Origin: Anastrepha obliqua
Taxonomy: Eukaryota > Arthropoda > Insecta > Diptera > Tephritidae
Assembly (NCBI RefSeq): GCF_027943255.1
Contig: NC_072896.1
Location: 121,489,879-121,553,878, forward strand
Reading direction: 5' to 3'
Length of the DNA stretch: 64,000 bases
Position 1 is the first letter of the stretch; every line of letters starts with the position of its first letter. Below, in pieces: positions 3,548 through 60,361 of the stretch. Under the pieces are notes generated by a model, which saw nothing but the letters and a program-made list of their open reading frames with translations, did no database searches and was not told the DNA's origin. Made by a program: the position numbers and the translations under genes.

Positions 3548-4569
3548 GAACACAAATATTTTTTGCTCTTTTGCTATGTAAAATTTTAGGGAAGCACTAG
3601 AGCTGGTCTAGCCAAAAAGAGGCTACGTCGATTTGCTTTAATCTCTGACTATATTTTTTGCTATATACACAACAACAACTGTGGTTAAATATATTTATAT
3701 TTTTTTAAAAGGACACTCCTAGCAGACGTGCATCTTCATAAGATACGTTTTTAGGTGACTGTGTGTCTGCATTTTAACCGCTAATAGACGTGCATACTTT
3801 ATAAGTTAAGTAATCGTAGATGTATGTCTAACTTTCTTTCGACTACGTTTGTTATATTGTACATATTTGTATGTATGCATAAGCATATATGCCACCTAGT
3901 CACTCACTACCTTCCACACTAGCAATACAAATTGTCTCTTGCCTATTAAGCAGGTTTAGCACAAGGGCACTGGTATTGTTAGAACAGCTGCTCTGGTTAG
4001 TTATTTTGCGTTCTTTAAGTGAGTGCTTCGCCAAAGGTCGACGTTGCATTTTGAGCGTGTCGAGCAAGGTGAATTGCCGCGCCGTGTCTATTGCCAGATG
4101 CAGTCGACTTCTTTTTTAGCTGTGTTGTTATAAACTGTGCACTTATTCTCGCTGAAGGCAAAAAATGATTGACTGCCATTGCTAGCTGTTACTGTTGCTT
4201 AAAACTCTTTGGAAGGCTGCCTATATATAGACAAGTAACTGAATGTGTTTTGTTTTGTTTTTGAAAATTTTTAAATATTTAAATGTATTCTAGAAGACAG
4301 GACCAAGCTTTTAAAATGATAGATCAGGTTAGCCAGATTGTTTGTCTAAAACAAGACACTCGGTGGCTCTTAGACGCATCGTGATACCTGCATTTGAGTT
4401 CCATCACCTACCTAAGTTACTTATACCACTCAGTTTTTTTTAAAGGAGGTAACAACTCCCCACAGTGAGACATTTTGCAAATTTCCCAGGTCTTCAAAGA
4501 AATAAGCGCCAAGATATTAAGCACGGCTTCTTTGAAGTACGAGTACAAGACAAGGAAGCTCTGGTACTG
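3548..4569. other. No recognisable feature
   Basis: AT-rich noncoding sequence with short low-complexity runs. Nothing supportable seen. Confidence 0.35.
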
Positions 4570-10353: not shown

Positions 10354-11572
10354 TTGGTAGTCGAAAAAGTCTTTTCGTTTTTCTAATCAAACTTCAACTC
10401 ATTTTTTTTTATATTTATAATGAACTTTATTAAACCAAATATGTACCATTTTGGTCGACCACCTTTTGCCATTTTTCTTCTAGAGACATTATTCCATCAG
10501 TGTAAAAGTTTTGTGGTTTCTCGGCGAAAAACCGCGGCAAATAATTTTCACAGGCTTCTCTTGAAGCCAAGTTTACTCCATTAAGGGAGTTTTGCATTGA
10601 CCGAAGCAAAAGGCAGTCCGATGGCGCAAGGTCAGGGCTATGTGGTGGATGCATCAAAACTTCCCAGCCAAGCTCTCCCAGTTTTTGCCGAGTCATCAAA
10701 AATGTGTGTGGCCTAGCGTTGTCCTGATGGAAGACGACGCCCTTTCTGCTGATCAGTTCTGGCCGTTTTTTTCGATTGCTTTCTTCAATCTCATCAGTTG
10801 TTGACAGTGAAGTGTAGAATCAATCGTTCGAGCAGGCTGGAGCAGCTCATAGTGGATGATTCCTTTCCAATCCCACCACCCTTACACCATGATCTTTCTC
10901 GCACATTATTGCCGTATTTGATCCACTTTTCGTCTCCTGCTACCATTCGCTTCAGAAATGGTTCGATTTCATTTCGTTTCAGCAAAGAATCGCAGCTGTT
11001 AATTCGGTCCATTAAATTTTTCACAGACAATTCATGTGGTACCCAAACATCGAGCTTATTTTTGTAACCAGCCTTTTTTAAATTATTCAAAACCGTTTGA
11101 TGATGAATGTTTAGTGCCTTGGCGATGTCATGGCAGCTTATGTGACGATCCTGGTCAATCTTTTCCATAATTTCATCGATTTTTTCAACGATAGGTCGAC
11201 CGGAGCGAGGTGCATCTTTCACATCGAAATTTTCAGAGCGGAAGCGAGCGAACCATTGTTGTGCTACACGAACTGATACAGCATCGTCTCCGTAAACTTC
11301 ACAAATTTCATTGGTGGCTTGCGTGGCATTCTTCCCTTTTTTATACAAAAATTTCAAAATATAGCGAATTTCTTCATTATTTTCACTCATTTTTGGCAGC
11401 TATAACTTTTTTTTAACTTCTCCGAATTTAATTTTTTTTGGTTAAACGGAGCTTAAAATGTCACCTTTCTAACACCATATGATATGACACAGTGTGATTG
11501 GTAGCACTGGAGATAAATGACTCCAACGACATCTATATCGACAAAATACAAAAGACTTTTTCGACTACCCAA
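10354..11572 (-). mobile_element. mariner transposon (DD34D)
   Basis: Inverted repeats of about 28 bp (outer end TTGGTAGTCGAAAAAGTCTT at the left, TTGGGTAGTCGAAAAAGTCT at the right read inward) are flanked by TA at 10352-10353 and 11573-11574. The length of 1219 bp is normal for mariner. The right TA sits directly against the left TA of the next element, giving a TATA junction at 11573-11576. Confidence 0.9.
10434..11390 (-). pseudogene. mariner transposase, frameshifted
   Basis: The N-terminal half is one frame of 198 codons from ATG at 11390: MSENNEEIRYILKFLYKKGK, helix-turn-helix, DVWVPHELSVKN, and the first catalytic Asp in VAGDEKW. It loses the frame after RSWCK. The catalytic C-terminal half continues in another frame with HQDNARPHT and SPDLAPSD; 34 residues separate the second and third Asp, the mariner signature. 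It ends EKWQKVVDQNGTYLV. At least two frameshifts are needed to join it, so it is not expected to be active. Confidence 0.85.
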
Positions 11573-12843: not shown

Positions 12844-15800
12844 CTTCTTCTTCTTCTTAATTGGCGCGATAACCGCTTACGCGATTTTGGCCGAGATTAA
12901 CAAAGCGCGCCAGTCGTTTCTTTCTCGTGCTAACCGGCGCCAATTGGACACACCAAGTGAAGCCAAGTCCTTCTCCACCTGATCTTTCCAACGCAGAGGA
13001 GGCCTTCCTCTTCCTCTGCTACCACCAGCTGGTACCGCATCAAATACTTTCAAAGCCGGAGCGTTTGTATCCATTCGGACGACATGACCCAGCCAACGAA
13101 GCCGCTGGATCTTTATTCGCTGCGCTATGTCTATGTCGTCGTAAAGCTCATACAGCTCATCGTTCCATCGTCTGCGATATTCGCCGTTGCCAACGTGCAA
13201 AGGTCCAAAAATCTTACGCAGAATCTTTCTCTCGAACACTCCAAGCGTCGCTTCATCGGATCTTGTCATCGTCCAAGCTTCTGCGCCATACGTTAGGACG
13301 GGCATGATGAGAGTCTTGTAGAGTGTTAGTTTTGTTCGTCGAGAGAAGACTTTACTGCTCAATTGCCTACTTAGTCCAAAGTAGCACTTGTTGGCAAGAG
13401 AGATTCTACGTTGGATTTCAAGGCTGACATTGTTATCGGTGTTAATGCTGGTTCCTAAATACACGAAGTCTTTTACAACCTCAAAATTATAACTGTCAAC
13501 AGTGACATGGGTGCCGATACGCGAGTGCGCCGACTGTTTGTTTGAAGACAGGAGGTACTTCGTTTTGTCCTCGTTCACCACCAAACCCATTCGCTTTGCC
13601 TCTTTATCCAGTTTGGAGAAGGCAGAACTAACAGCGCGGTTGTTAAGGCCGATGATGTCAATATCATCGGCATACGCCAACAATTGTACGCTCTTATAAA
13701 AAATTGTGCCTGAGCGATTAAGTTCTGCGGCTCGTACGATGCTCTCCAACATCAGGTTAAAGAAGTCACACGACAGCGAGTCACCCTGTCTGAAACCTCG
13801 TTTGGTATCAAACGGCTCGGAGAGGTCCTTCCCAATTCTGACGGCGCTACTGGTGTTGAGCAACGTCATCTTACATAGCCGTATTAGTTTTGTGGGGATA
13901 CCAAATTCAGACATAGCGGCATACAGGTAACTCCTTTCCGTACTGTCGAATGCAGCTTTGAAGTCGACGAAAAGATGGTGTGTGTCGATTCTCCTTTCAT
14001 GGGTCTTTTCCAAGATTTGGCGTATTGTGAATATTTGGTCGATGGTAGACTTTCCAGGTCTGAAGCCACACTGATAAGGTCCAATCAGTTGGTTGACGGT
14101 GGGCTTCAGCCTTTCACACAATACGCTCGCTAGAACCTTATAGGCGATATTTAGAAGACTAATCCCGCGGTAATTGGCACAAATTGCAGGATCGCCCTTC
14201 TTATGGATTGGGCAGAGCACACTTAAATTCCAATCGGCAGGCATGCTTTCATCCGACCATATTCTGCATAGGAGCTGATGCATGCACCTTACCAGCTCCT
14301 CGCCGCCATGTTTGAATAGCTCAGCCGGCAGTCCGTCGGCGCCTGCGGCTTTGTTGTTCTTTAGCCGTGATATTGCTATTCTCACCTCGTCATGGTCGGG
14401 TAACGGAACGACAATTCCGTCGTCAACGATTGGGGTATCGGGATCTTCACATTCTCTATGACATGCGCAGCCGTCACCGTTTAACAGGTTCGAGAAGTGT
14501 TCCCTCCATAATTTAAGATTGCTCTGTACGTCAGTCACCAGATCGCCGTCTTTGTTCTTACAGGACAACGCCCCGGTCTTAAAACCTTCTGTAAGCCGCC
14601 GAACTTTCTGGTAAAATTTTCGGGCGTTGTTCCTATTGGCCAGCATCTCAAGCTCCTCGCACTCACGTATTTCGGCCTCTCGTTTCTTCTGTCGGATAAT
14701 ACGTCTCTCTTCCTTTTTCAGCTCTCTGTAGCGATCCCACATGGCTCGCGTTGCGCCCGATCGCAGCGTGGCTCTATAGGCGGCATCTTTTCTTTCGGCG
14801 GCAGCATGACATTCCTCGTCGTACCAATTGTTTTTTCGGGCTCGCCGGAATCCGATTTCTTCTTCGGCGGCGGTACGTAGGGAACGAGAAATGTTGCTCC
14901 ATTGCTCGCGCATGCCGGTGTGTTGGGCAGTGCTCTCCGAGAGCAGGAGTGAGAGTCGAGTGGCGAATCTTCTGGCTGTCTGTTGTGATTGCAGCTTTTC
15001 GATGTCGAACATTCTTTGCGTAGGTAGATGTACGTTTTTTGCTGCACAGAGGCGTGTGCGCAGTTTGGCTGCAACAAGGTAATGATCCGAGTCGATGTTG
15101 GGTCCTCGGATCGTACGTACATCTAATACACTAGAAGCGTGTCTTCCATCTATCACAACATGATCGATCTGGTTTCGCGTTTTTCGATCAGGAGACAGCC
15201 AGGTAGCTTGGTGTATCTTTTTATGCTGGAATCTGGTGCTGCAGACTACCATGTTTCGGGCCCCGGCGAAGTCGATCAGCCTCTGTCCGTTACCGGATGT
15301 TTCGTTGTGTAGGCTGAATTTTCCGACTGTGGGACCAAAAATTCCCTCCTTGCCCACCCTGGCGTTGAAGTCGCCAAGCACGATTTTTATGTCGTGGCGG
15401 GGGCAGCGCTCATAGGAACGTTCCAAGCGCTCATAGAAAGAATCCTTGGTCGCATCGTCCTTCTCTTCCGTCGGGGCGTGGGCGCAAATTAGCGAGATGT
15501 TAGAAAAACGCGCTTTGATGCGGATTGTTGCGAGACGCTCGTCCACCGGAGTGAACGACAGTACTTGGCGACGAAGTCTCTCTCCCACAACAAATCCGAC
15601 ACCGAATTTGCGCTCCTTTACATGGCAGCTGTAGTAGACGTCGCAAGGTCCTATGTTTTTCTTACCTTGCCCCGTCCATCGCATCTCTTGGATGGCAGTG
15701 ATGTCAGCCTTTACTCTCACGAGGACATCAACCAGCCGGGCAGAGGCACCTTCCCCATTAAGGGACCGGACATTCCAGGTGCATGCCCTCAAATCATATT

Positions 15801-16125
15801 CCTTATTTCGTTTGCAGGGGTCGTCATCAGTAAAGGCAGTTCTCATCCGAGGCTTTGTTGCTGTTTTCATTGGGGGGGGCTTTTTAAGTGGCGGGTCCCA
15901 AACCCAGCGCACAACCAGCTATGCTGGGATGCTTCGCCTTCTCACTTTAGCTCACTCCCGAACGGGTGTTCGGAAGCTAACCAGAGGATACGTGGGCTAA
16001 TCCCGGCCGTTGTGAGCTGCTTGAACCATATGTAGAAGAATCGTCCTGGCCACTCCCAAGTGAATGGCGATCAGTAACTTTCCCCACTTGCGTGGACTTC
16101 TACACATGGAACCATCCTCCATCCA
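12844..16125 (-). mobile_element. Full-length RTE-clade LINE
   Basis: A 3282-bp retrotransposon bounded by the perfect 10-bp duplication CCTCTTAATT. It has one long ORF, a 5' leader of about 213 bp and a 3' untranslated region of about 33 bp. The tail is an AAG repeat (plus strand 12844-12857) preceded by CGCGCCAATTA. Short 3' regions and simple-repeat tails are characteristic of RTE. The intact ORF and perfect duplication indicate a young insertion. Confidence 0.95.
12877..15912 (-). CDS. RTE endonuclease-reverse transcriptase, intact
   Basis: This 1011-residue protein nicks target DNA and copies its own RNA there by target-primed reverse transcription. The apurinic-type endonuclease covers about residues 40-285: WNVRSL with Asn47, IQEMRW with Glu76, LGDFNARVG (180-188), NQIDHVVI and SDHYLVA with His277. 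The reverse transcriptase covers about 500-800: PIHKKGD...YRGISLLN, FVDFKAAFD (648-656), RGFRQGDSLS, and the catalytic YADD at 747-750. The C-terminal part contains RLRWLGHVVRM, usual for RTE. Length matches single-ORF RTE elements. No stop or frameshift interrupts it. The first residue shown is an ATG-equivalent start; 5' leader precedes it. It is probably competent. Confidence 0.93.
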   Translation of the reverse strand: MRWVWDPPLKKPPPMKTATKPRMRTAFTDDDPCKRNKEYDLRACTWNVRSLNGEGASARLVDVLVRVKADITAIQEMRWTGQGKKNIGPCDVYYSCHVKERKFGVGFVVGERLRRQVLSFTPVDERLATIRIKARFSNISLICAHAPTEEKDDATKDSFYERLERSYERCPRHDIKIVLGDFNARVGKEGIFGPTVGKFSLHNETSGNGQRLIDFAGARNMVVCSTRFQHKKIHQATWLSPDRKTRNQIDHVVIDGRHASSVLDVRTIRGPNIDSDHYLVAAKLRTRLCAAKNVHLPTQRMFDIEKLQSQQTARRFATRLSLLLSESTAQHTGMREQWSNISRSLRTAAEEEIGFRRARKNNWYDEECHAAAERKDAAYRATLRSGATRAMWDRYRELKKEERRIIRQKKREAEIRECEELEMLANRNNARKFYQKVRRLTEGFKTGALSCKNKDGDLVTDVQSNLKLWREHFSNLLNGDGCACHRECEDPDTPIVDDGIVVPLPDHDEVRIAISRLKNNKAAGADGLPAELFKHGGEELVRCMHQLLCRIWSDESMPADWNLSVLCPIHKKGDPAICANYRGISLLNIAYKVLASVLCERLKPTVNQLIGPYQCGFRPGKSTIDQIFTIRQILEKTHERRIDTHHLFVDFKAAFDSTERSYLYAAMSEFGIPTKLIRLCKMTLLNTSSAVRIGKDLSEPFDTKRGFRQGDSLSCDFFNLMLESIVRAAELNRSGTIFYKSVQLLAYADDIDIIGLNNRAVSSAFSKLDKEAKRMGLVVNEDKTKYLLSSNKQSAHSRIGTHVTVDSYNFEVVKDFVYLGTSINTDNNVSLEIQRRISLANKCYFGLSRQLSSKVFSRRTKLTLYKTLIMPVLTYGAEAWTMTRSDEATLGVFERKILRKIFGPLHVGNGEYRRRWNDELYELYDDIDIAQRIKIQRLRWLGHVVRMDTNAPALKVFDAVPAGGSRGRGRPPLRWKDQVEKDLASLGVSNWRRLARERNDWRALLISAKIA

Positions 16126-18384: not shown

Positions 18385-19415
18385 AGAACCGAGGTAACTA
18401 GGTAGATGAAATGGCTGGAGTGGCATTATGGCGCCATTTTGATACCTTTATGAGACCTCTAACAGGCAGATATCTACAGCCAGCCAACCAGAGGTGTTGA
18501 TGTAAGGGAGAACATTGATAAGTTTTAGGTTGGCGCACTGCCCCAGGCTGTCAAAGAAAGGAGCACCCAGCGACACTATTCTTCTAGTTGCCAAACCCGC
18601 ATATTTACAGAGAAAGCGCTCAACAGTCTGCTTCTCTGAAAGGTCCCCACTGCCTCTGCAATAGGGAATAAAAGGCAAACCAAACTTTTCCGCGTGTGTC
18701 TCGATCGTCCAATAACCGCTAAACCACTATGAGCTTAGAAATCGAGTGGCGGCGAGTACCCAGGACTTTTTCCGTCTACGTCTATTGCACTCGGTCCAAA
18801 GGGTTTCCTGGATAACACACGAGGAAATGAAGCGCCAGCTTTTCTGCGCGTTCGTAGAAAAATAAGTGATGCAATTCTCCTTTAAAAACAGTCAGGGTGA
18901 TGCCGATGACCGGGCAGGAGGGCTCTGAAACCAATTCAACCCCTCTCTGGCAAGCTCATCAACAATTCCATTTCCCTCTATTTTCTTATGTCTGGCACTC
19001 CATATCAGAGAAATGTTACCTGCACACTCAAGAGATTTGGTCTTCCTCTTACGGGAGTTGACTAATTTGGTTCTTCACCATGACGTCGTCAGAGCCTTGA
19101 TTGCGGCTTGACTATCGCACAAAATTTTAATATCTCCCTCGCTCCCTCGTTTCCTAAGCATTTTGCACGCCTGCAGGGTTGCAAAGACTTCTGCTTGAAA
19201 AAACTAGCACTATTCGACTATTTTAAGGAAATATATAAATTGGCTGATTAAAAGAAAACCCTTGCTTCAACTCTCGATTCCATCTTGGAGCCATCAGTGA
19301 AGATTTTCCCCTTTTTTTAATCCTGCCTGATTGGAAATATCGCCTGGCGTGACCCTTAAATTCCAGTTTGCGGTCAGAGAGATCTGTCCGAAGTCCAAAA
19401 TAGCAACCTAACATA
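18385..19415 (-). mobile_element. LOA-type LINE 3' fragment
   Basis: This fragment is closely parallel to the LOA LINE at 26510-34836. The same order of features occurs on the minus strand: LRTDLSDRKLEFKGHARRYF, a decayed RNase H, the terminal Cys/His region and YINTSGWLAVDI. The 3' untranslated region has the same GCCATTTTGATACC motif and ends with a GGTA-type tail near 18391. Frames are broken and a short AT-rich insert lies at about 19205-19255. The upstream end is truncated. Confidence 0.8.
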
Positions 19416-26637: not shown

Positions 26638-26869
26638 CTACAGCCATCCAGTGCTGTTGATGTAGCGGAGGAGAGAAAAGGGATCTAGGCTGGAGAATTT
26701 CGTCAAGTCATCCCCAAAGGGAACGCTGAGGAATCTCAAGCGCCTAGCCGCCAAAGCCGGACATCTGCAGAGAAAGTGTACCACAGTCTCTTTCTCTGTA
26801 GGATCCCCACAGCTTCTGCAATGGGGGTTGTACGGAATTCCAAGCTTCTCCGCGTGAGTGCCGATCACC
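26638..26869 (-). pseudogene. LOA ORF2 C-terminal end, detached
   Basis: This is the last ~77 codons of the LOA ORF2. It contains IGTHAEKLGIPYN, the CRSCGDPTEKETVVHFLCRC zinc-binding cluster (Cys-x2-Cys then His and Cys), and the end FSLLRYINSTGWL. It was separated from the rest of ORF2 by the Transib insertion and has no start of its own. Confidence 0.85.
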
Positions 26870-26874
26870 CAGTG
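26870..26874. repeat. Transib target-site duplication, left
   Basis: CAGTG, matched by CAGTG at 30562-30566. Transib elements make 5-bp duplications, so length and GC-rich character fit. Confidence 0.9.
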
Positions 26875-27705
26875 CACTATGGGCTGGCATCAAGAAAGGT
26901 GGCCAAAAGTCGGTTTTAGAACTGGGACCAATGGAGTATATTTTTGATATCTATACACTTTAGAGCAGCTATGAGCAAAATTTCAGAGAATTTCGTTTAG
27001 TAGTTTTGTCATTAAAGGGCGATAACCATTCATACTTCGGCTTTTTTTGCACTTGGTCATATAGTTAAAAACAGTGCGAAATTCGAATATCGCTCAAAAT
27101 ATTTTTGGTAAATTTTACGTTTTTGTATTCAGTTAGAATATTCCAACACAGATTATACTGAAAAAGCTTTGAAATAAAGGAACTTGACGAAAAAAAATTA
27201 ATTTTATTCTTAAAATGTTGTTTTTTACCAAAAAGTTTTAGCCGTCGAATGCTGGCAACTTTTGGCACTCCATGATATTAACAAAATTTCAATATGAAAA
27301 TATTCTTTGAAGTATCTATTATTACCTATTGATGCGCAAATGTGCGCTTTTTAGTATTTTCAGAGATAACGGTAAAAACGTATGTGCGCTCTGAACAGCT
27401 TTTGTACTGTGTCTATGTTCAAATGCCCATAACGTTTTACTGAATTGACAGATTTGAGTCATTTTTGATATATTAAAAATATTTTTAAAAAATCGTTACA
27501 CAGCCAATAGAAATGTTTTTTTTGTTTACATTACAAAAGTAACAAAGTAGCCATGATAAATTAAAAAAATCGTTGGGAGAACGTAATTCTGATTGGGGGA
27601 AGGTTTTTTTAAATGTCTAGAATTTTGCTTCTAACAACATAGTAGGCATTAAATCAAAAATAAATTTCAGAAAATTCGAAACTTAGTTGGTCGGCTCATT
27701 GTTAA

Positions 27706-29769
27706 ATGCAATTTAATCAAAGCTGTTTCATTATAATGGCGACATTCACGAAGAAGGAAATTTTAGATGCCAATGATGCTGAAAAAGGAAGCGGTGTAAA
27801 ATATATTTTAAATAAATTACTAATTGAAGAAAATAAGGTACATTCTGAGGATCTTAAGCGTTTAGTTAAGATGGTTGCGTCTCTTATTTCTAAAAGAAAG
27901 GTTAAATACAAAAAAACCAAAAAAAATAATAAATCATTTACAGAGAAAAATGTCGAATGGATTAATTCACAGTTTCTCATTCCAGAATTAAGAATAAAGT
28001 CTAGTTCCGATTCTTCTTCCTTGAAACGTGGTCGCCCATGTGTTGAATTTGAAAAAATGTCAGATCGATCGAAGCGGCGGGCAATTGCAAAAATAAGCCA
28101 GCAATGTGAAAACGATCCTCTAAAAATATTATTGGCGGCACGACAAGCTGCAATAAAGTCTCAGGAGTGCGAATTAAGTTCGGTTTTGAAGAAAATCATA
28201 GAAAACCCAGAGTATTGCGTGAAAATAAAGCAATCCAGTAAAGCCACGCTTTCACTTATTGTGAAATCTCCTGAAGAAGCTCTGGCTTTTTTGATCGATA
28301 ATGGGCTTTCAAAATCAGCTTATACAAATATAAGGTTAGCAACAAAATTAAGCGGAGCTGATGTTTGGCCTCCTTACGATCGATTAAAGGAAGCTAAAGA
28401 GCAATGTAGACCTCTAAAAGAATTCATTCAAATAAATGAGAATGAAGCTAAGTGCGATCTTCAAGCGCTTTTAAATCATACTGCCAGAAGAATTGCCGAG
28501 TTGCAGCAAGAAGTAGTACTTTTATATGCACAGAAGTCTAATTTTTGCGACATTGAAGCTGTTTTTATTTTTTCTTGGCGGTTTGATGGAACCAGTGGAT
28601 TTCCATCATTCAAACAACCTTATTCTGAATCAAGTGTAGAAAAAGTTGATACAAATTTACTTGCTTGTACATGCATTCCTTTAAGATTAGTAACGTCAAA
28701 TGGGACCATTTTGTGGAACAACGCTATTTCTCAATCTGAAAAATTTTGTCGCCCAATTTCACTTAAATGGATAAAAGAAACTACTGAAATTATTAAATCA
28801 CAAAAGCAAATAATGGACGAACAAATTAATAAGCTCGAGTGCTTGGAAATTGAGGTACAACATTTTCGTATACGTTTACATTTTTCTTTGCATATGACTC
28901 TAATAGATGGTAAAGTTTTAAATGCACTTACTGACACAACATCATCACAGTCATGTCCAATTTGCCACGCGACACCAAAACAATTCAATGATCTTTCCAA
29001 TATTGCGACAGATGTTTTCTTACCAATTACTGGCTCCCTGCAGCATGGCATAAGTCCATTGCACGCTTGGATTAAAATTTTGGAATGCTGTTTAAATATT
29101 TCATACAGGAAAAATATAAGAAAGTGGAGAGTCTCAAACGAAGTTGATAAAAAAGAATATTCGCGCAGAAAAGCAGAAATACAAGATATTTTGTGGAAGA
29201 AATTGGGATTGAAAGTGGACATGCCCAAGGATAGAGGTTGCGGAAACAGTAATGATGGCAATTCAGCTCGTCGGGCTTTTCAAAATTCAGAAGTCTTTGC
29301 AAATTGTTTAGAGTTGAATACAGAATTAGTAACCAACTTTTCAATAATATTAATGGCTTTATCCTGCCATCTGCCGATAGATCCTAATAAATTCAATATA
29401 CTGTGCCATCAGACTGCAAGAATTTATGTTGCGAACTACAATTGGTATTTTATGCCTGCGACGGTTCATAAAATATTAATTCACGGCTCTGCGATTATAG
29501 AAAATAGTATTTTACCTGTAGGAATGTTTGCAGAAGAAGCTTCTGAAGCCCGCAATAAAAATTATAAGTGTTACCGTGAGCGGCACAGTCGGAAATGTAG
29601 TCGAGAAGCTACAATGCAAGATATGTTCTTGCGTTCTATGGATTCCTCAGATCCACTAATAGCGTCTCATAGCTTGAGTTCACGACTACAAAAACGAAAA
29701 AAATTGCCTCTTCCATCTGCAGTAATTGCATTACTCGCATTACCAGAGGTTCCGCAAAGTGAAGAGTAA
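27706..29769 (+). CDS. Transib transposase, intact 687 aa
   Basis: This is a RAG1-family DDE transposase that would bind the CACTATG ends and cut at the heptamer border by hairpin chemistry. Candidate catalytic residues are Asp294 (WRFDGTSG), Asp401 (LIDGKV) and Glu614 (ASEARNK). The zinc site matches RAG1: Cys417 and Cys420 (CPIC) with His588 and His593 (HKILIH). Other Transib hallmarks are GNSNDGNSARRAF (513-525) and the C-terminal RERHSRKCSREATMQDMF. The second Met, residue 11 (MATFTKKE, 27736), has the better initiation context and may be the true start. No stop or frameshift. It lies antisense to the host LINE. Confidence 0.93.
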   Translation: MQFNQSCFIIMATFTKKEILDANDAEKGSGVKYILNKLLIEENKVHSEDLKRLVKMVASLISKRKVKYKKTKKNNKSFTEKNVEWINSQFLIPELRIKSSSDSSSLKRGRPCVEFEKMSDRSKRRAIAKISQQCENDPLKILLAARQAAIKSQECELSSVLKKIIENPEYCVKIKQSSKATLSLIVKSPEEALAFLIDNGLSKSAYTNIRLATKLSGADVWPPYDRLKEAKEQCRPLKEFIQINENEAKCDLQALLNHTARRIAELQQEVVLLYAQKSNFCDIEAVFIFSWRFDGTSGFPSFKQPYSESSVEKVDTNLLACTCIPLRLVTSNGTILWNNAISQSEKFCRPISLKWIKETTEIIKSQKQIMDEQINKLECLEIEVQHFRIRLHFSLHMTLIDGKVLNALTDTTSSQSCPICHATPKQFNDLSNIATDVFLPITGSLQHGISPLHAWIKILECCLNISYRKNIRKWRVSNEVDKKEYSRRKAEIQDILWKKLGLKVDMPKDRGCGNSNDGNSARRAFQNSEVFANCLELNTELVTNFSIILMALSCHLPIDPNKFNILCHQTARIYVANYNWYFMPATVHKILIHGSAIIENSILPVGMFAEEASEARNKNYKCYRERHSRKCSREATMQDMFLRSMDSSDPLIASHSLSSRLQKRKKLPLPSAVIALLALPEVPQSEE

Positions 29770-29799
29770 CGGCCACTCCTCAAAAGAGATAAAAAAAAA

Positions 29800-30063
29800 G
29801 TAAATCATAAAAAAAATATAAAAATATAAAAAAATTAAAAAAAAAAAATCTTAAAAAAGAAAAAAAAAATATTTTCAGTTGAAATCAATTTTATTTTCCT
29901 AAAATATCTTTAATTTTCAAATTAAGAAAAATATAAAATAAAAAAATCTTAAAAAAAAATCGTTTTAATAAAAAAAAACCAAAAAACCGTAAAAAAAAAT
30001 TTAAAAAATAAAGAAAAAATAAAAAAAAATAAAAAAAAAATTAAAAAAAATAAAAAAAAAAAT
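29800..30063 (+). repeat. Extreme A-rich tract downstream of the Transib stop codon
   Basis: About 260 bases in which A runs of 4-12 are broken mainly by single T, TT or ATA, including many AATAAA-type hexamers. It could act as the transposase polyadenylation region. The composition suggests slippage growth. Confidence 0.75.
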
Positions 30064-30199
30064 AAAAGTGGAGTCTTCTAAACCTGTAACCTCCTCGTGG
30101 TAGGCTCTGGAAACTGCAAATGTTCACCAAACTTTGCAGGCTAATAACAGGCTTATGAAAGTGCTGGAATTTTCAACTTAGGCGCTTGGTATAAAGATT

Positions 30200-30535
30200 T
30201 TTCAAATTCTGAGTCCAGATTCGAAATCAGCGACCTCGAAAACCCCTTTATGCAAATATTTGTATAAAAAATTGATTTTTTTTAATTTCGGCCGCCATAT
30301 TGGATCCGCCATATTGAATTTTTAAATTCTGAGTCCAGATTCGAAATCAGCGACCTCGAAAACCCATGTATGCAAATATTTGTATAAAAATATGGATTTT
30401 TTAAATTTTCGGTCGCCATATTGGATCCGCCATATTGAATTTCTAAAATCTGATTTCAGATTCGACATCAGCGACCCCAAAAACATTTATATACCAAGTT
30501 TCACGAAAAAATGTTTTGATTTCGATTTATGGCCG
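30200..30535 (+). repeat. Transib subterminal tandem repeats, ~120 bp x 3
   Basis: The sequence TCTGAGTCCAGATTCGAAATC followed by AGCGACCTCGAAAACCC starts at about 30208 and 30328. A diverged third copy starts at about 30449, a period of 120-121 bases. Each unit also holds TTTGTATAAAAA and a CCATATTGGATCCGCCATAT motif. A related GTCGCTGATTACGAATTTG block occurs in the non-autonomous element at 59644-60361. Confidence 0.85.
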
Positions 30536-30566
30536 CTTTTCCTTGATGCCAGCCCATAGTGCAGTG

Positions 30567-33500
30567 GCCAGTGATCACCGCGATGAGTTTGGAAATTGAA
30601 TGGCGGGGGGTTCCCATCACCTTAAGCGTTCTGTTTATGTCGTATTGAGGCCATAGTGCTTTTGAAATGGCACACGATGAGACAGACCTCCATCTGTCTT
30701 GCGCTTTTCTTAGAAAGAAGTTGTGTAGTTTCCCTTTAACGACGGCCAAGGGGATACCGATGTCTGAGAAGAGGGCAGCTGGACTCGGTTCTGCCGCCCC
30801 CTTCCTGGCAAGCTCATCGGCAATTTCATTTCCCTCTATATTCCTGTGCCCAGGAACCCAGATGAGGGAGATGTTTTCTGCCCGTTCGAGGCGTTTAAGT
30901 TCCTCCTTACAGGAGTTTACGAGAAGAGAGCTGCAATGCGGCGACGACAGTGCCTTGATTGCAGCTTGGCTATCGGAAAAAATATTTATGTCTCCCTCCC
31001 AACAGCGATCCCGAAGCATTTTGCATGCCTGCAGGATCGCGAAGACCGCTCCCACTCCAGACTCCATTTTGGATCCGTCAGTGAAAACAGAGGCCTCTAT
31101 ATCCGCAACAACTCTCCCCTCTTTCCAATCTTGCCTGCTCGGAAAGATAGCCCTAGCACAACCCTCAAAGCACAGTTTGCGGATGGAGAGGTCGGTGCGA
31201 ATATCTGAGAAGGAAGGGGAGATCTGCTTCAAGATGCTGCTATGCCCAACAGGGAGTTGTCTCCAGAGGCCAAACTCCCTCAGTCTGATAGCACTCTGAG
31301 CAGCAATGGATTTAACCTGCAGATCCACAGGAATTAAGTGGAGTATAACGTTGAGCGCAGCGGTGGGACATGTTCTACAGGCACCAGTGATGCCCACACA
31401 TGCAGTTCTCTGCACTCTCTCTAATTTGGTGAAGTTGTAGCCCTTCTGAAGAGCTAACCACCAAACTAGGCAACCGTATGTCAAAATTGGCAGAACCACT
31501 AAGTTGTACATCCAGAGTACGACACGTGGCTTGAGGCCCCATTTCTTGCCGAACATAGATTTACAGGCATAGAAGGCTATGTTAGCCTTCTTAACTCGAT
31601 TTTCTATGTGCAGCTTCCAGTGGAGCTTGGGGTCAAGTATTACACCAAGATACTTGACTTCCGATGAAAGTGTAAGACACTGGTTATTAAGTCTAGGAAG
31701 CTTAAACGGCGGAGGCTTGTATTTTCTGGTGAATAGCATCAACTCCGTTTTGTCAGAGTTGACTCTGAGACCGCTACTGGCGGCCCACCTGCTGAGTGTA
31801 GCCAGTGCACCTTCCAAAATTTCAGCCATTACTGATGGGAAGGGACCTGAGACCATCAGGACCAAGTCATCGGCATATGCTACCACCTTTACCCCTCCCC
31901 CGTTTAAACGAGTTAAGGCTTCATCTACAGCTACTAGCCAGAGGAGGGGCGAGAGGACGCCGCCCTGTGGTGTGCCCCTATGTACGAATCTGGTGATTCT
32001 AGCCCCTCCTGCCACCGCATTTATTTCCCTACCATCAAGTAGGGATGAGATCCAGCGGTAGATAGGTGTTTCTACCCCTAGCCTGTTTAGAGCCGTGACA
32101 ATTGACTCCGCCCTAATGTTATTAAAGGCGCCCTCTATGTCTATAAAGGCCGCCAAAGTGAATTGTTTCCCCTCCAGAGATTTCTCTACAGTCCCTACTA
32201 CCTCATGTAAGGCTGACTCGGTAGATTTCCCTTTTCGGTAGGCGTGTTGGGCTGGAGAAAGTCTGGTTTCACAGTGCTCTCGGATGTGACAGTCGATCAC
32301 TCTTTCAAGCACCTTGAGAATAAAGGAGGTAAGACTTATAGGTCTAAAGTCCTTGGCCAGGACGTGGCCCCTCCTTCCTGCCTTAGGAATGAAGACCACT
32401 TTGGTTTTCTTCCAGCTAGCAGGAACGTGGTTCAGCGAGATACACGCCGAGAAGATCTTTTGAAGAACGGGAACCACCACGGTCTTAGTCTTCTGAAGCA
32501 TTACTGGCATGATACCATCGATGCCTGGAGATTTGAATGGGGAAAAACTCTCGATTGCCCAGTTTATCCTGTTGACGGACAAGACCTGTGTCAGGGACAT
32601 CACAGGTAACCCCTCCTGCCGGTTCGGGTCTTCGTTACAGACCGGATCAATAGAGTTTTCCGGGAAATGGGCATCAATAAGGATTTTTAAGGATTCGCCT
32701 GCAGATTCAGCCCACTCCCCGTTCTCTCTTTTGACAAGAGTTTTACAGGAGTGGTCCTTGGATAGGATCCTGCTGAGTCTGGCCGAGTCTTTTACGGATT
32801 CGATGGATTCGCAGTACTCTTTCCAAGAGTTGCGCTTCGCATCTCTAATGGCTTTCTTATAAACTTTCAAAATTTCCCGGTAATCTTGAAAGTTCCTTAT
32901 TTGATAACATTTGTTGAAGACTCTCCTAACCTTCTCTTTCAAGTCGGTCAGCGTTTTGCTCCACCAGGGAGGAAAGTCTTTCTTGCTAAAGGATACTGGG
33001 CAGGCCACTTTGAAGGCAGTCTGATAAGACCCTTCTAAGTGTCTAACTTGCGTGTCCAGTTGTTCCTTAGTGGTAGTCAAGAACTTACTGCTATTCAGCT
33101 TCTTGCAGAAAACCCTGTGGAAAAGAGACCAGTCTGTTCGTTTAGGGTTTCTGCGGGGTAGCAAGGTCTCCCGAATGAAATCGATTTCGTAGAGGATCAT
33201 CCTGTGGTCCGAAAACGAGTTTCTCTGGGAGACCGTCCAATTTTCAACCCTAACAGCAGATGAGTTTGTAGAGAGAGAGATATCAAGAACTTCCTCCCAA
33301 CCATTTGATGTTCCCGATGCCGGGAAGACAAAAGTTGGGGTGTTGCCCTTGTTACAGATAAGTAAATTACGGCTTAGTATAAAATCAAACAGAGACTCAC
33401 CCCGTTCATTGATCTCGCTGCTGCCCCAAATGGTGTGTCTGGCATTCGCATCGCATCCGATCAGGATGTTCTCCTTCTTGGGCTGGAGAGTATCCACTAG

Positions 33501-33863
33501 ATGCTGCAACTCCTCAGGAGGCGCCGATCTGTCGTGGGCCATGTAGGCAGAGACCAGGCAGAAGCAACTACCACTGGATGGTTCCACCCTGACCGCAGTC
33601 ACATCCGGTGAACTGAAATTAGATAGCAAAAAGACATTAATTGTGTTCCTTACTAGGATACAGGCCCTTGGCTTACCATCAGTATGGACATAAAAGAGGT
33701 CATAGGATCTGTCTCTCAGTCCCATGATTTTATGCTGCCAGATCCAAGGCTCCTGTATCAGGCAGACATCGATGTCCTCCTCCCGGAGGGTGACTCTTAG
33801 GTTATCTGTGGCTAGTTTGGAATGATGAAGGTTAATTTGTAATACTTTTAACAGACTGTTCAA
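30567..33863 (-). pseudogene. LOA ORF2 (endonuclease, RT, RNase H), disrupted
   Basis: Endonuclease about residues 1-235: QINLHHSK, LIQEPW, IGCDANARH, SFSDHRMI. RT about 440-770: FIDIEGAFNN, GTPQGGVLSPLLW and YADD at 663-666. RNase H 925-1030: FTDGSK (Asp928), FSDSQAAIKA (Asp964), WVPGH and EIADELARKG. The stretch after GVGAV that should carry the catalytic Glu (QAE) is deleted, joining directly to FAILQACKML. No ATG begins the frame; it starts at TTG just after ORF1 stops. The last ~20 residues before the apparent stop at 30501 are encoded by the Transib end, not the LINE. It would not give full activity. Confidence 0.85.
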
Positions 33864-33878
33864 AAGTGTTACTTACCT

Positions 33879-34787
33879 TTATGACTGCTCCCCCAGTTCG
33901 GAATCTGCGTCCGTCCCAGACAGCCGCAGATCATCGAGCAGCTTCTTGGTGTCATCCCCCAATTTCTCCAGGTCATCGTCCAGGGCGACAGAGGCGGGGA
34001 AGACCTTCACTTTGGCCAACCTGAGGCCAAAGCGAAGTTTGAACTGCTGTTTTTCGAGAGCCTCCAGCGACTCGTTGCTAATCAGCAGTAATATGGCTGA
34101 GCTATGCTGCTGAGGTTCTTCTACTTTGATGACAGACCAGTCATCCATAGGAACCTCAGGATTCTGAAGCTTGAGACACGGGACAATTTCCGAACTGTCC
34201 AGCTCCATTTTCGGCAGCCAGATTCTGGCTCGTGGTCGCCTGGGAATTTCTGAGGCAGGGATGGGCTTTAGCGAAAGCCCCTCCCAGGCGTTGCTAACCG
34301 TAGCAAGGCTCTTCTCCAGAAATTCCTTCGAGTACTGGTTGGCACATTTTATCACCCTACAGCCCCGACAGATTTCACCCGAGTCGAAGAGAGGTGCTGG
34401 CCCTTTTTTGTCCATGAGGTGTCTGACGACCATCCCCGATAGCCGTCCCTCAATGGCATCCCAAAGGGGTAACACCGCTCTTCCACTTTTGGTTTTTGCG
34501 TCCACGAGGGCAACTTGGAGATGGTCTCTGGCCACCTCACTATAAGCCGCCCTCGAGGCCGCGCCTGCCGCACTGGTTGAAGGGCCCCCAGCCCCCTGGG
34601 TTGAGGAGTGTTTGCTCCTTTTGGCCACACGTTCACTCACATCCTGTGAGCGGTTACGCTTAGCCGAGCTCCGTGCCGGTTTTGGCTGTTGTTGTGGCTG
34701 GACTAATTTTGCTGCAGACGCGGCCTCGTACTCTCTGATCGCGGCCTCGTACTTCACCCAATTGAAGGTGCTGCTACTAAACTTCAA
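33879..34787 (-). pseudogene. LOA ORF1 (gag-like), 5' truncated
   Basis: About 302 residues; they begin at a TTG, and the open frame continues upstream without ATG to a stop near 34838. The sequence is Ala/Gln/Ser-rich at the N-terminus with a basic segment (SAKRNRSQDVSERVAKRSK) that may bind RNA. A conserved-looking globular half (about 100-300) follows, resembling the ORF1 region described as DUF4780; this is from memory. It has no CCHC zinc knuckles. It ends GEQS then TAA, AGG, TAA, and ORF2 follows in the same frame. Confidence 0.65.
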
Positions 34788-34859
34788 GATACTGGCAACC
34801 AGATTGCCTCCTGGCCCAAAAAAGGGAGGATTAAACTAAACAAGAGCAAATCAACCCAC

Positions 34860-35220: not shown

Positions 35221-35398
35221 TAAGAGAGAGTCAAGTGCTTATGTTACTTAATATTGGAGCTGATGGTTTCAAAAAGCTCGAAAATGGATTAAGCAAAAAT
35301 GGATTTGGGCAATCCAAATAAGCGGCGCCTAGTCATGAATGTAGGTTACTTGTAATATTGTACTTCCACACTTGTACTGTTCTTCCACAAATGGAGTG

Positions 35399-35508
35399 AC
35401 GACCACGCTGAAAACATCGGTTCTCGTCCGATCACCTAAATTAAGCAGCGTCGGGCGCGGTTAGTACTTGGTTGGGGGACCGCTTGGGAACACCGCGTGT
35501 AGTTGGCC
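35399..35508 (+). pseudogene. 5S rRNA pseudogene
   Basis: The sequence from CGACC and ACGCTGAAAACATCGG through AAATTAAGCAGCGTCGGGCG to GAACACCGCGTGTAGTTGGC is close to Drosophila 5S rRNA. The internal promoter region is intact, as is the 3' end, followed by a TTTT at 35518. About five bases (ATACC) are missing near the start. The first nucleotides that should pair with GTTGGC are replaced by unrelated sequence, so helix I cannot form. It is a dispersed single copy, not an array. Confidence 0.85.
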
Positions 35509-45820: not shown

Positions 45821-47111
45821 CGAGGAGTGCCTTTTATATGTCGGGATAAGAGAACAAAAACAAATTTTAATAATCGAAAATCACTTTATTGTTTTTCAAA
45901 ATATTCTCCGTGAAGATCTATACACTTTTGCATGCGTTTGAACCAATTGTCAAAGCACTTTTGCCACTCTGAATGAGGCACCTCCAAAACATGCATTCTG
46001 AATGCCGCAACCGCTTCTTCAGGTGTCGAAAAACGTTGACCTCTCAGTTTGTTTTTTACGTACGGGAATAAAAAGAAGTCATTCAGTGCCAAGTCAGCAC
46101 TATACGGCGGATGACCCATTAATTCGATGTTTTGTATGCTCAAAAATGCAGTTGTTTGAGCCGATGTGTGAGAGCTCGCATTGTCCTGGTGAAGAGTGAT
46201 CCGTCTTTGGCGATTGGTTTTCCTGGTTTCTTGAAAGACAACTGGCAAACAAATGGTTGTGTACCACTCAGAATTTACTGTTCTGCGTTGTTCTAGTGGC
46301 ACGGTTGCGACATGTCCAGTTTTTCCGAAAAAACAGGCGACCATTTGCATGGAAGTGCTTCGTGCGCGAACAATTTTTGTTGGATTTGGGTCATCTTGAA
46401 ACACCCATACAGTCGACCGCTGTTTACTGTCGGGCTCATACGCGTAAATCTATGATTCATCACCTGTCACGATGTCATAGACGTGTTTCGAAGCCCCGCG
46501 ATCGTATTTTTTGAGCATTTCCTTCGACCAATCGACACGAGCCTTTTTTTGAGCGATTGACAAATTGTGTGGGATCCAAACCGAACACATTTTTTGACAG
46601 TCAAATGTTTATGCAATATTGAATGTATGCTGGTCCCACTAATGCCTAAGATTGTCTGAATCTCACGATAGGTCACATGACGATCTTGCAATATCAGTTC
46701 GCGCACAGCATCAATGGGTTTCGGAACGAAAACTGATTTTGGACGACCTTCACGAAATTCGTCTTGGAGTGAACTACGACCACGATTGAATTCACCATAC
46801 CATCGATAAACACTGGTCCTTGATGGAGCTTCATCGCCAAAAAAATGAATTAAGTTCATCCATGCAATGTTGCTGAGGTAATCCACGTCGAAAGTTGTAA
46901 AAAATAATCGCACGAAAATGTTCACGATTTAATTCCATTTTTGGACCGAGATGAATCTTTAAGTTACTGTAAACAACACAAATAGCGCTGGTATTTAAAA
47001 ACGTTCTGAGTACGTAAAAGCCAAAAAATGTCAAACTTTGCGATACAGCTGTCAGTTGCCAGATTGCAACACCAGGGTTGCCAAGTGCCGACATATAAAA
47101 GGCACCCCTCG
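45821..47111 (-). mobile_element. mariner transposon (DD34D)
   Basis: Inverted repeats CGAGGAGTGCCTTTTATATG (left) and CGAGGGGTGCCTTTTATATG (right, read inward) are flanked by TA (45819-45820 and 47112-47113). Length 1291 bp. The transposase is on the minus strand. Clade may be rosa-like, from memory. Confidence 0.9.
45889..46938 (-). pseudogene. mariner transposase, two or more frameshifts
   Basis: It begins MELNREHFRAIIFYNFRRGL at 46938, then moves frame to NLIHFFGDEAPSRTSVYRWY, RSSLQDEFREGRPKS and DRHVTYREIQTILG. The catalytic part (from about 46404) carries LHQDNASSHTS (second Asp) and the YSADLALNDFF region (third Asp), 34 residues apart. It ends DLHGEYFEKQ. A stop lies near the first Asp region (before MFQDDPNPT), so this copy is inactive. 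Confidence 0.82.
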
Positions 47112-54854: not shown

Positions 54855-56142
54855 TTAGGAGGTTGAATTAGTTTTAAAGGTGACACACAGATGGCGCTAT
54901 TTATCACTTTATCGCGTTGGCAATACTGAATATATATTCATGACAAAGCCTCATCCCTAGGCTTTGTTTATCAGTATCTGTCATTTCGCTGAAGTATAAA
55001 CAACGCAGTGTTTTCGTGTTCCGAGTATGTCAACTTTCGTGCCGTCGAAACGCAATTTGCGGGAAGCTTTGCTTTTCTGCTTCAATTTGAAAAAAAAAAT
55101 ACAGCCCAAGCCCGTGAATTGCTGCAGGAGGCCTACCCAGACCATACTCCGTCGATTTCAACATGTGAGTACTGGTTTCGACGATTCAAAAGTGGTGATT
55201 TTCACACCGAAGACAAGGAGCGTCTTGGCCAGCCCAAAAAGTTCGAGGACGCGGAATTGGGGGAATTGGTAAACGAGGACTCGTGCCAAACCCAAGAAGA
55301 GCTTGCTGAATCATTGGGCGTTGATAAATCAACCGTTTGCAAGCGTCTAAAAGCGATGGGAATGATCCAAAAGCAAGGACATTGGGTCCCGTACGAGTTG
55401 AAGCTGCGCGACGTCGAACGGCGATTTTTTACGTGCGAATTGCTGATCGAGCGACAAAATCGGAAGGGTTTTTTGCATCGGGTGGTGACTGGCGACGAAA
55501 AATGGATCCACTACGATAACCCAAAACGCAAAAAATCATGGGGTTTGCCCGGTCACGCATCAACGTCGACGGCCAAGCAGAATATTCACGGCAAGAAAAT
55601 CATGCTCTGCATTTGGTGGGATCAGGTCGGCGTCGTATATTTTGAGCTGCTCCAACCGGGCGAAACAATCACGGGGGATCGTTACCGACTGCAATTGATG
55701 CGTTTAAGCCGGGCATTGAAAGAAAAACGGCCGGAAACGGTAAAAAGGCACGACAAGGTTATTTTGCAACATGACAACGCTCGGCCGCATGTTGCTCAAC
55801 CTGTCAAAAAATACCTTGGAACGCTTGGCTGGGAAGTGTTACTCCACCCGCCGTATAGTCCAGACATAGCTCCCTCCGATTATCATTTGTTCCGGCATAT
55901 GAGTCTCGATTTGGCGGACCAGCGGTTCTCCTCGTACGAGGCTACCAAAATATGGGTTGAGTCATGGATAGCCAAGCAGCGGCCAGAATTTTGCAGAAAC
56001 GGCATCCGGAAATTGCCCGAAAGATGGGCGAAAGTTGTAGCTAGCGATGGCCAATACTTCGAATAAAATATTTTGTACCGTTTTTTCACAATAAAGCCCC
56101 AAATCTTCGAAAAAACCCTTTAAAACTAATTCAACCTCCCAA
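54855..56142 (+). mobile_element. mariner transposon (DD34D), nearly intact
   Basis: Inverted ends TTAGGAGGTTGAATTAGTTT (left) and TTGGGAGGTTGAATTAGTTT (right, read inward) have TA at 54853-54854 and 56143-56144. Length 1288 bp. Confidence 0.92.
55027..56066 (+). pseudogene. mariner transposase with a single frameshift in an A run
   Basis: The true start is MSTFVPSKRNLREALLFCF at 55027. After FNLKKK the frame breaks at a ten-A run (55090-55099); adding one A restores NTAQARELLQEAYPDH, and everything after reads cleanly to YFE at 56066. Helix-turn-helix segments, WVPYEL, the first Asp in VTGDEKW, ILQHDNARPHV (second) and YSPDIAPSDYHLF (third) are present. Thirty-four residues separate the last two. 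An alternative long frame starting at 55008 has an N-terminus from the wrong frame. It resembles the mauritiana/vertumnana group. Confidence 0.88.
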
Positions 56143-59643: not shown

Positions 59644-60361
59644 CACAGTGCGGCCGATTCCCGAAAAGCTGGCCAAAACTCAAAAAATTAAGTAATTGAT
59701 TCAAAATTTCTTACTCGGGGGCTGTCGGGGTCGCTGATTACGAATTTGATCTTAAAATTTTGAAAATCCACCCCCTTCTACCCCTAGCAGATCCCCTCTT
59801 GAAAGTATAGGCTTTCACTGTTTTCTCTCATTCTCTCTTCGTATTTATTTCTTGTGCACAAAAAATAGCATAAAAGCATAAAAGGTAGCAAGTGGTAGCA
59901 GCTGAATCTTATTTTATTCAGTAACCATTACTTTTTTGAGTAACCTTTAATAGGTTTCAAAGCAGCATATGACGGCGTTGTATTATTATACAGTTTGAAA
60001 ACTCAAATTTTATAAAAAAAAATTGCAAAAAATGTATCTACGTATTGCTGCAGCTAAAAATTTTGTGTCGAGGTATTGATATGTACTAAAGATTTCTCGT
60101 ATTTTACTAACCTTCCGAAGATGATTCCATTTGGTTTTGTTCAATTTACTCCATTACAAAATCTTTCAAATGTGTACAACTTTCACTATTCATCGACACG
60201 TTGCGACTGAAAATACAGAGTATACTTAGGGTACAGGACGTTGCTATGAACGGTTTTCACTACCCAAGGCATTACTGTAGCCAACCCAAAGACAAAAAAA
60301 CTCTATCTAGAAACTTTTTTTTCGACTTTTGGCCAGCTTTTTGGGAATCGGCCGCACTGTG
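59644..60361. mobile_element. Non-autonomous Transib relative (718 bp)
   Basis: Inverted ends begin CACAGTG, exactly the canonical V(D)J heptamer, and continue CGGCCGATTCCC then AAAAGCTGGCCAAAA. The left and right ends differ at very few positions over 35 bases. The 5-bp duplications TGCCG lie at 59639-59643 and 60362-60366. The inner TGGCCAAAA is also in the Transib at 26875. There is no transposase frame. Confidence 0.85.

Follow-up and report, generated by a model that had tools for sequence, protein, structure and literature searches.

The DNA analysed here, referred to below as the window, is a 64-kb stretch (64,000 nucleotides) of contig NC_072896.1 of the tephritid fly Anastrepha obliqua, and it contains, at positions 26875–30561 on the plus strand, a complete Transib, a transposon whose transposase is related to RAG1. 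The limits of this 3,687-bp element are given by its perfect ends, by the duplication of its target and by comparison with its sibling copies. The 20-bp terminal sequence CACTATGGGCTGGCATCAAG is found at both ends in opposite orientation: the left terminal inverted repeat (26875–26894, plus strand) is perfect over 20 bp and continues imperfectly for a few further bp, and the right one (30542–30561, minus strand) is perfect over 20 bp. Read in order, the junctions are CAGTG (26870–26874), CACTATGGG ... CCCATAGTG and CAGTG (30562–30566), the two target-site duplications being recognised both in the sequence and by copy comparison. Both ends begin with CACTATG, that is, they are inverted, start with CAC and resemble the heptamer of a recombination signal sequence, as is characteristic of Transib. 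With up to three mismatches allowed, the 20-bp end has two matches in the window, which are the two ends of the element, and none in 100 shuffles. The coordinates, the CACTATG ends and the duplicated CAGTG had all been called in an earlier, sequence-only reading of the window, and they proved exact.

Inside these ends, an 831-bp leader precedes the transposase frame and 792 bp remain on its other side. The latter region comprises an A-rich non-coding stretch (29790–30068), evident from the sequence, and a subterminal array of three direct repeats of about 120 bp (30146–30507, plus strand), which was delimited by repeat comparison. The number of these repeats differs among near-identical copies of the element, which fall into length classes near 3,687, 3,807 and 3,928 bp. 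Outside the element, at 59671–59768 on the minus strand, there is a 72% match over 100 bp to this repeat (E 8e-6), which is possibly part of another, older element. All other frames of at least 150 aa in the element either overlap the transposase in antisense or belong to the tail of a long interspersed nuclear element (LINE) frame. Consequently, no second gene of the RAG2L type was seen that would make this a RAGL (RAG1L-RAG2L) element; this statement concerns frames of at least 150 aa, and the search did not extend to a RAG2-like gene made up of short exons.

The transposase frame, defined as an open reading frame (ORF) and by homologue comparison, occupies 27706–29769 (plus strand) and is open for 687 codons followed by a stop, as the sequence-only reading had it. 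Its closest homologue, P0001, begins at the equivalent of Met11 (27736), which probably makes Met11 the true start. A phmmer search with the transposase matched HzTransib of Helicoverpa zea (6pqn, E = 2.8e-89; further structures 6pqr, 6pqu, 6pqx, 6pqy and 6pr5), with homology in sequence and fold over residues 184–681. The identity is 34–35%, and the window protein has some 180 extra N-terminal residues. Pfam gave no model above its cut-off for the transposase and only a sub-threshold SelR match.

Alignment with HzTransib and with the homologues places the residues of the catalytic Asp-Asp-Glu (DDE) triad and of the C2/H2 zinc module in the Transib columns. These are the catalytic Asp294 (28585–28587), Asp401 (28906–28908) and Glu614 (29545–29547) and the zinc ligands Cys417 and Cys420 of a CPIC motif (28954–28965) and His588 and His593 (29467–29484), all on the plus strand; they align with D, D, E, C, C, H and H of HzTransib. 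In an alignment with 58 homologues, 26 of which were taken into alignment A1, the aspartates and cysteines are invariant in the rows that cover each site (D294 in 55/55, D401 in 57/57, C417 in 57/57 and C420 in 57/57). The same is true of H588 (49/49), while H593 is found in 48/49 (with one Tyr) and E614 in 49/50 (with one Asp). The earlier claim of RAG1-type residues was right: all of them lie in Transib columns. The sequence match to RAG1 itself is mainly C-terminal, at about positions 550–638, and the remaining correspondence comes from the fold. RAG1 and the amphioxus RAG1L of ProtoRAG have the catalytic fold and the zinc module in common with the window protein, and their ends also begin with CAC, but the identity in the structural rows is 15–18% and RAG2-like frames of the size given above were not seen in the element.

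The element lies within ORF2 of a LINE, which we take to belong to the LOA clade. The part of ORF2 upstream of the insertion (30567–33872, minus strand) was identified from its frame and from a domain search, which found endonuclease, reverse transcriptase and RNase H (PF14529/PF03372, PF00078 and PF00075). The 3' part of the same ORF2 (26638–26874, minus strand) is in frame with it in the joined sequence without the insertion. Removal of the element plus one CAGTG gives a single LINE frame of 1,180 codons without a stop, reading ...VITGHWVIGTH..., so the nesting proposed from the sequence (ITGH followed by WVIG) was borne out. Moreover, a related LINE copy elsewhere in the genome (L029:671-844) runs gap-free across the insertion point (174 bp, 90% identity), and a more distant copy in the window itself (18584–18985) also spans it (68%, with gaps). 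The ORF1 of the host LINE (33879–34835, minus strand; frame and domain search) contains DUF4780. Some 560 bp past this ORF1 frame and on the opposite strand (35398–35508, plus), there is a match to 5S ribosomal RNA over the full length of the model (Rfam RF00001, 69.7 bits), which may represent a genuine 5S gene, a pseudogene or a short interspersed nuclear element derived from 5S.

The genome of the fly (836 Mb in 204 contigs) was searched for relatives of the element, and the best 65 of 1,835 candidates were scored. There were 49 matches at 94–100% protein identity, which merged into 43 loci, and 16 matches at 39–52% identity, which correspond to other families; among these best 65, nothing lay between 52% and 94%, and thus no older relics were seen among them. 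A frame of 676–688 codons without a stop is present in 26 of the 43 loci. The many near-identical copies that the sequence-only reading had suggested looking for do exist, and the idea of a lone relic has been dropped, since the genome holds at least 43 loci of the family. The sequence-only reading had called an apparently intact element of this kind uncommon, which was overstated in view of these loci, 26 of them with an open frame, and of the 533 insertion sites of hopper in resequenced Drosophila strains, a figure taken from an excerpt of PMC3276498.

Near-identity of many copies is also what would be expected if they were duplicates created by the assembly or by segmental duplication rather than by transposition. 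Forty of the 43 loci were compared; two of them (L014 and L024) are without one end, and the counts of duplications, divergence and frames therefore use the remaining 38, which have both ends. Among the 76 flanks of these 38 complete copies no two match, 37 copies have their own perfect 5-bp duplication (one mismatch in the other), and the loci are distributed over six large contigs plus another that measures 3.1 Mb. For the complete copies, the dissimilar flanks and individual duplications rule out such an origin, and for the family as a whole it is extremely improbable. The ends themselves are well conserved: the left-end 40 bp are the same in 35/38 copies and the right-end 40 bp in 37/38.

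Over positions 1–2900 of the element, the 38 copies differ from one another by a mean of 0.22% and a maximum of 0.53%. In this region, 115 minor alleles were seen once and 4 more than once, and two copies (L010 and L012) have no substitution with respect to the majority sequence. The low mean difference, together with the fact that almost all changes are private to single copies, shows that this star-like pattern is that of a recent burst of the family. On average the copies lie 0.11% from the majority, which at the mutation rate of Drosophila would correspond to at most a few hundred thousand generations; assembly errors inflate this distance, and the burst has no firm date.

Within the frame, the changes among copies comprise 55 that alter the protein (6 of them stops) and 15 that are silent. 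Some of these 70 changes are adjacent to indels and could be artefacts of the alignment. Selection on the transposase frame among copies was not seen, the ratio of 55:15 being that expected with no selection; this indicates that copies decay freely after landing. The majority protein is unchanged in seven copies (L010, L011, L012, L013, L015, L016 and L017). Internal deletions of 33–46 bp are present in five copies (L036, L037, L044, L047 and L048) and, together with the varying number of 120-bp repeats, would be in keeping with post-excision gap repair that was interrupted. An open frame related to RAG1 might also be taken for a domesticated, RAG1-like host gene. However, this is a multi-copy sequence bounded by inverted ends and by duplications, its sites are scattered, the changes in its frame fit no selection and the element sits inside a LINE; its anatomy refutes domestication, to which we attach almost no credence.

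Before position 2950, five base changes relative to the majority are private to the window copy, and two of them alter residues. One, V205A, is at a variable site. The other, G292R (codon 292, 28579–28581, plus strand), is unique to the window copy among the 38 complete copies: glycine is present in the 37/37 others, in HzTransib and in the 55/55 homologues covering the site. Arg292, which the sequence-only reading had passed over, stands two residues before the catalytic D294, in a predicted strand (282–296) that also contains D294. This substitution probably harms the active site and weakens or kills the copy's own enzyme, and its occurrence at an otherwise invariant site beside D294 makes the window copy doubtful as an autonomous element. 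The copy is intact as DNA, and a sibling transposase may move it in trans. The contrary possibility is that the window copy is a fully active autonomous element in which Arg292 does no harm or results from a base-calling error. It is true that none of the catalytic or zinc residues is missing and that the element has both ends and its entire frame, but the glycine is retained not only by the siblings but also by homologues, some of them at 33–50% identity, and full activity of this copy is unlikely. The suggestion that the element may be active thus fares well for the family, as judged from its sequences, and poorly for this copy.

Very probably, then, the locus holds a full-length member of a recently amplified Transib family of a dipteran genome that landed in ORF2 of a LOA-like LINE and whose enzyme is itself probably weakened by G292R. 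Several points weigh against this reading. Firstly, the frame is broken in 14/38 complete copies, and in seven of the broken frames (L038–L044) the same A-run has gained one or two bases. Secondly, copies with an open frame need not encode an intact enzyme: the 676-codon frame of L036 is short of 11 codons where the CPIC zinc site lies, and the open frame of L034 carries H593Y at a zinc ligand. Thirdly, the base responsible for G292R may be a sequencing or assembly error, and the substitution lies in a predicted strand but its effect on the enzyme is a presumed one. The A-run in question lies near codon 71 (about 27910–27930 of the window), and its extra bases could be due to recurrent slippage, to shared descent or to assembly error. 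Another zinc-ligand change, H588N, is carried by L039.

The 38 copies lie at dissimilar sites. Their duplicated pentamer fits C-(A/G)-N-(T/C)-G (CRNYG) in 31/38 cases versus 952/87,781 positions (1.1%) in the flanks of these loci; a terminal C is found in 35/38 and a terminal G in 36/38. The preference resembles the CCANTGG motif published for the Drosophila elements hopper and transib2, which likewise make a 5-bp duplication (PMC3276498, excerpt), and the notion of a new target preference was dropped for this reason. These are different families, likened here by the published motif rather than by sequence. HzTransib also makes a 5-bp duplication (PMC1852546). In the fly's own genome, a sister Transib family is represented by L049:179-5308, with ends CACTATGGGC... 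(CACTATGGGCCAGGAGACC); the single copy examined duplicates TATAG, and it differs from the window element in its length (5,130 bp), its 731-aa frame and its protein, which is 49% identical.

The transposition of the family can be pictured as follows. The transposase, an RNase H-fold DDE enzyme with the RAG1/Transib zinc module, would bind the CACTATG ends and, by homology, would cleave them by the nick-hairpin route of RAG and HzTransib. The ends are then joined to a 5-bp CRNYG target to give the duplication, as 37 perfect examples show, and the copies subsequently decay without detectable selection. The window copy has kept its ends and its frame while its own enzyme is probably weakened or killed by G292R, and it would be movable by the transposase of its siblings.

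A further point is the origin of the family. A tree was made of 47 rows (45 of the 58 homologues, those of length at least 540, plus the window protein and L049). The window protein groups with P0001, P0002 and P0007 (100/98), beside P0003 and a row from the wasp Leptopilina (100/99); next comes the ant Ooceraea biroi (93/87, fork unstarred), and the species-labelled Diptera rows (Lucilia, D. ananassae and Sergentomyia) fall outside this clade. One explanation is a recent horizontal arrival that is still spreading, like that of Transib1 in D. melanogaster, rather than the reactivation of a resident family. This would account for the star-like copies at 0.22% mean divergence, for the lack of scored matches with identities from 52% to 94% and for the wasp and the ant being the nearest species-labelled rows. 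However, this large clade can hardly be called foreign to flies, since L049, a second family of the same species, falls in it alongside the ants; no more than 37% of the columns are filled in the wasp row, and the ant fork is unstarred; the closest database relative is only 73% identical and points to no donor; and the gap in identities applies to the best 65 of 1,835 candidates. An arrival of this kind is conceivable, and we put it forward tentatively.

The window contains other mobile elements. Mariner/Tc1-like transposase frames are found at 10794–11399 (minus; HTH_48), at 45886–46449 (minus; DDE_3 just below the cut-off) and at 54993–56066 (plus; Transposase_1 with HTH_48, 357 codons, stop-free). 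A LINE frame of 1,013 codons at 12877–15918 (minus), with endonuclease and reverse transcriptase, is 98% identical to a database protein and looks young. For a LINE of the window other than the one that hosts the Transib, the nearest species-labelled relatives are Zeugodacus cucurbitae (75–81%) and Bactrocera dorsalis (79%), followed by Musca and Drosophila at about 60%.

As a kind the element is ordinary; it is well preserved and belongs to a set that is large and young for Transib. These findings leave the definition of Transib unchanged. A recent Transib invasion and high insertion numbers are already known, the former in D. melanogaster (PMC12230796) and the latter for hopper (PMC3276498). 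In the first case, Transib1 of D. melanogaster and D. simulans, a recent spread of near-identical full copies was likewise found, the invasion of D. melanogaster taking place in 2013–2016. That invasion was dated by a strain series whereas the present family has been seen in one genome, and the two are likened by description, not by sequence. Among 1,226 arthropods, that paper reports McLE as the only one of its 11 elements with similarity beyond the drosophilids. Transib1 insertions are described as causing lethal alleles (PMC12974806, excerpt). Among the publications found on Transib together with Tephritidae, Anastrepha or Bactrocera, titles and the beginnings of abstracts contain no description of the present family.

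An animal genome is said to contain, as a rule, one autonomous Transib copy or a few (PMC4411706, excerpt), and 26 open-frame loci and 38 complete copies 0.22% apart provide a contrast case. These copies allow the target sites of a RAG1 relative to be profiled cleanly in vivo, and G292R, H588N and H593Y constitute a natural mutant series of a RAG1-like enzyme. It may even be, although this is on the unlikely side, that the horizontal transfer was very recent and that the family is still transposing, with insertions such as the window copy carrying crippled enzymes and being moved in trans. If so, the species would be a natural, multi-copy, live model of the invasion of a genome by a RAG1-type transposon.
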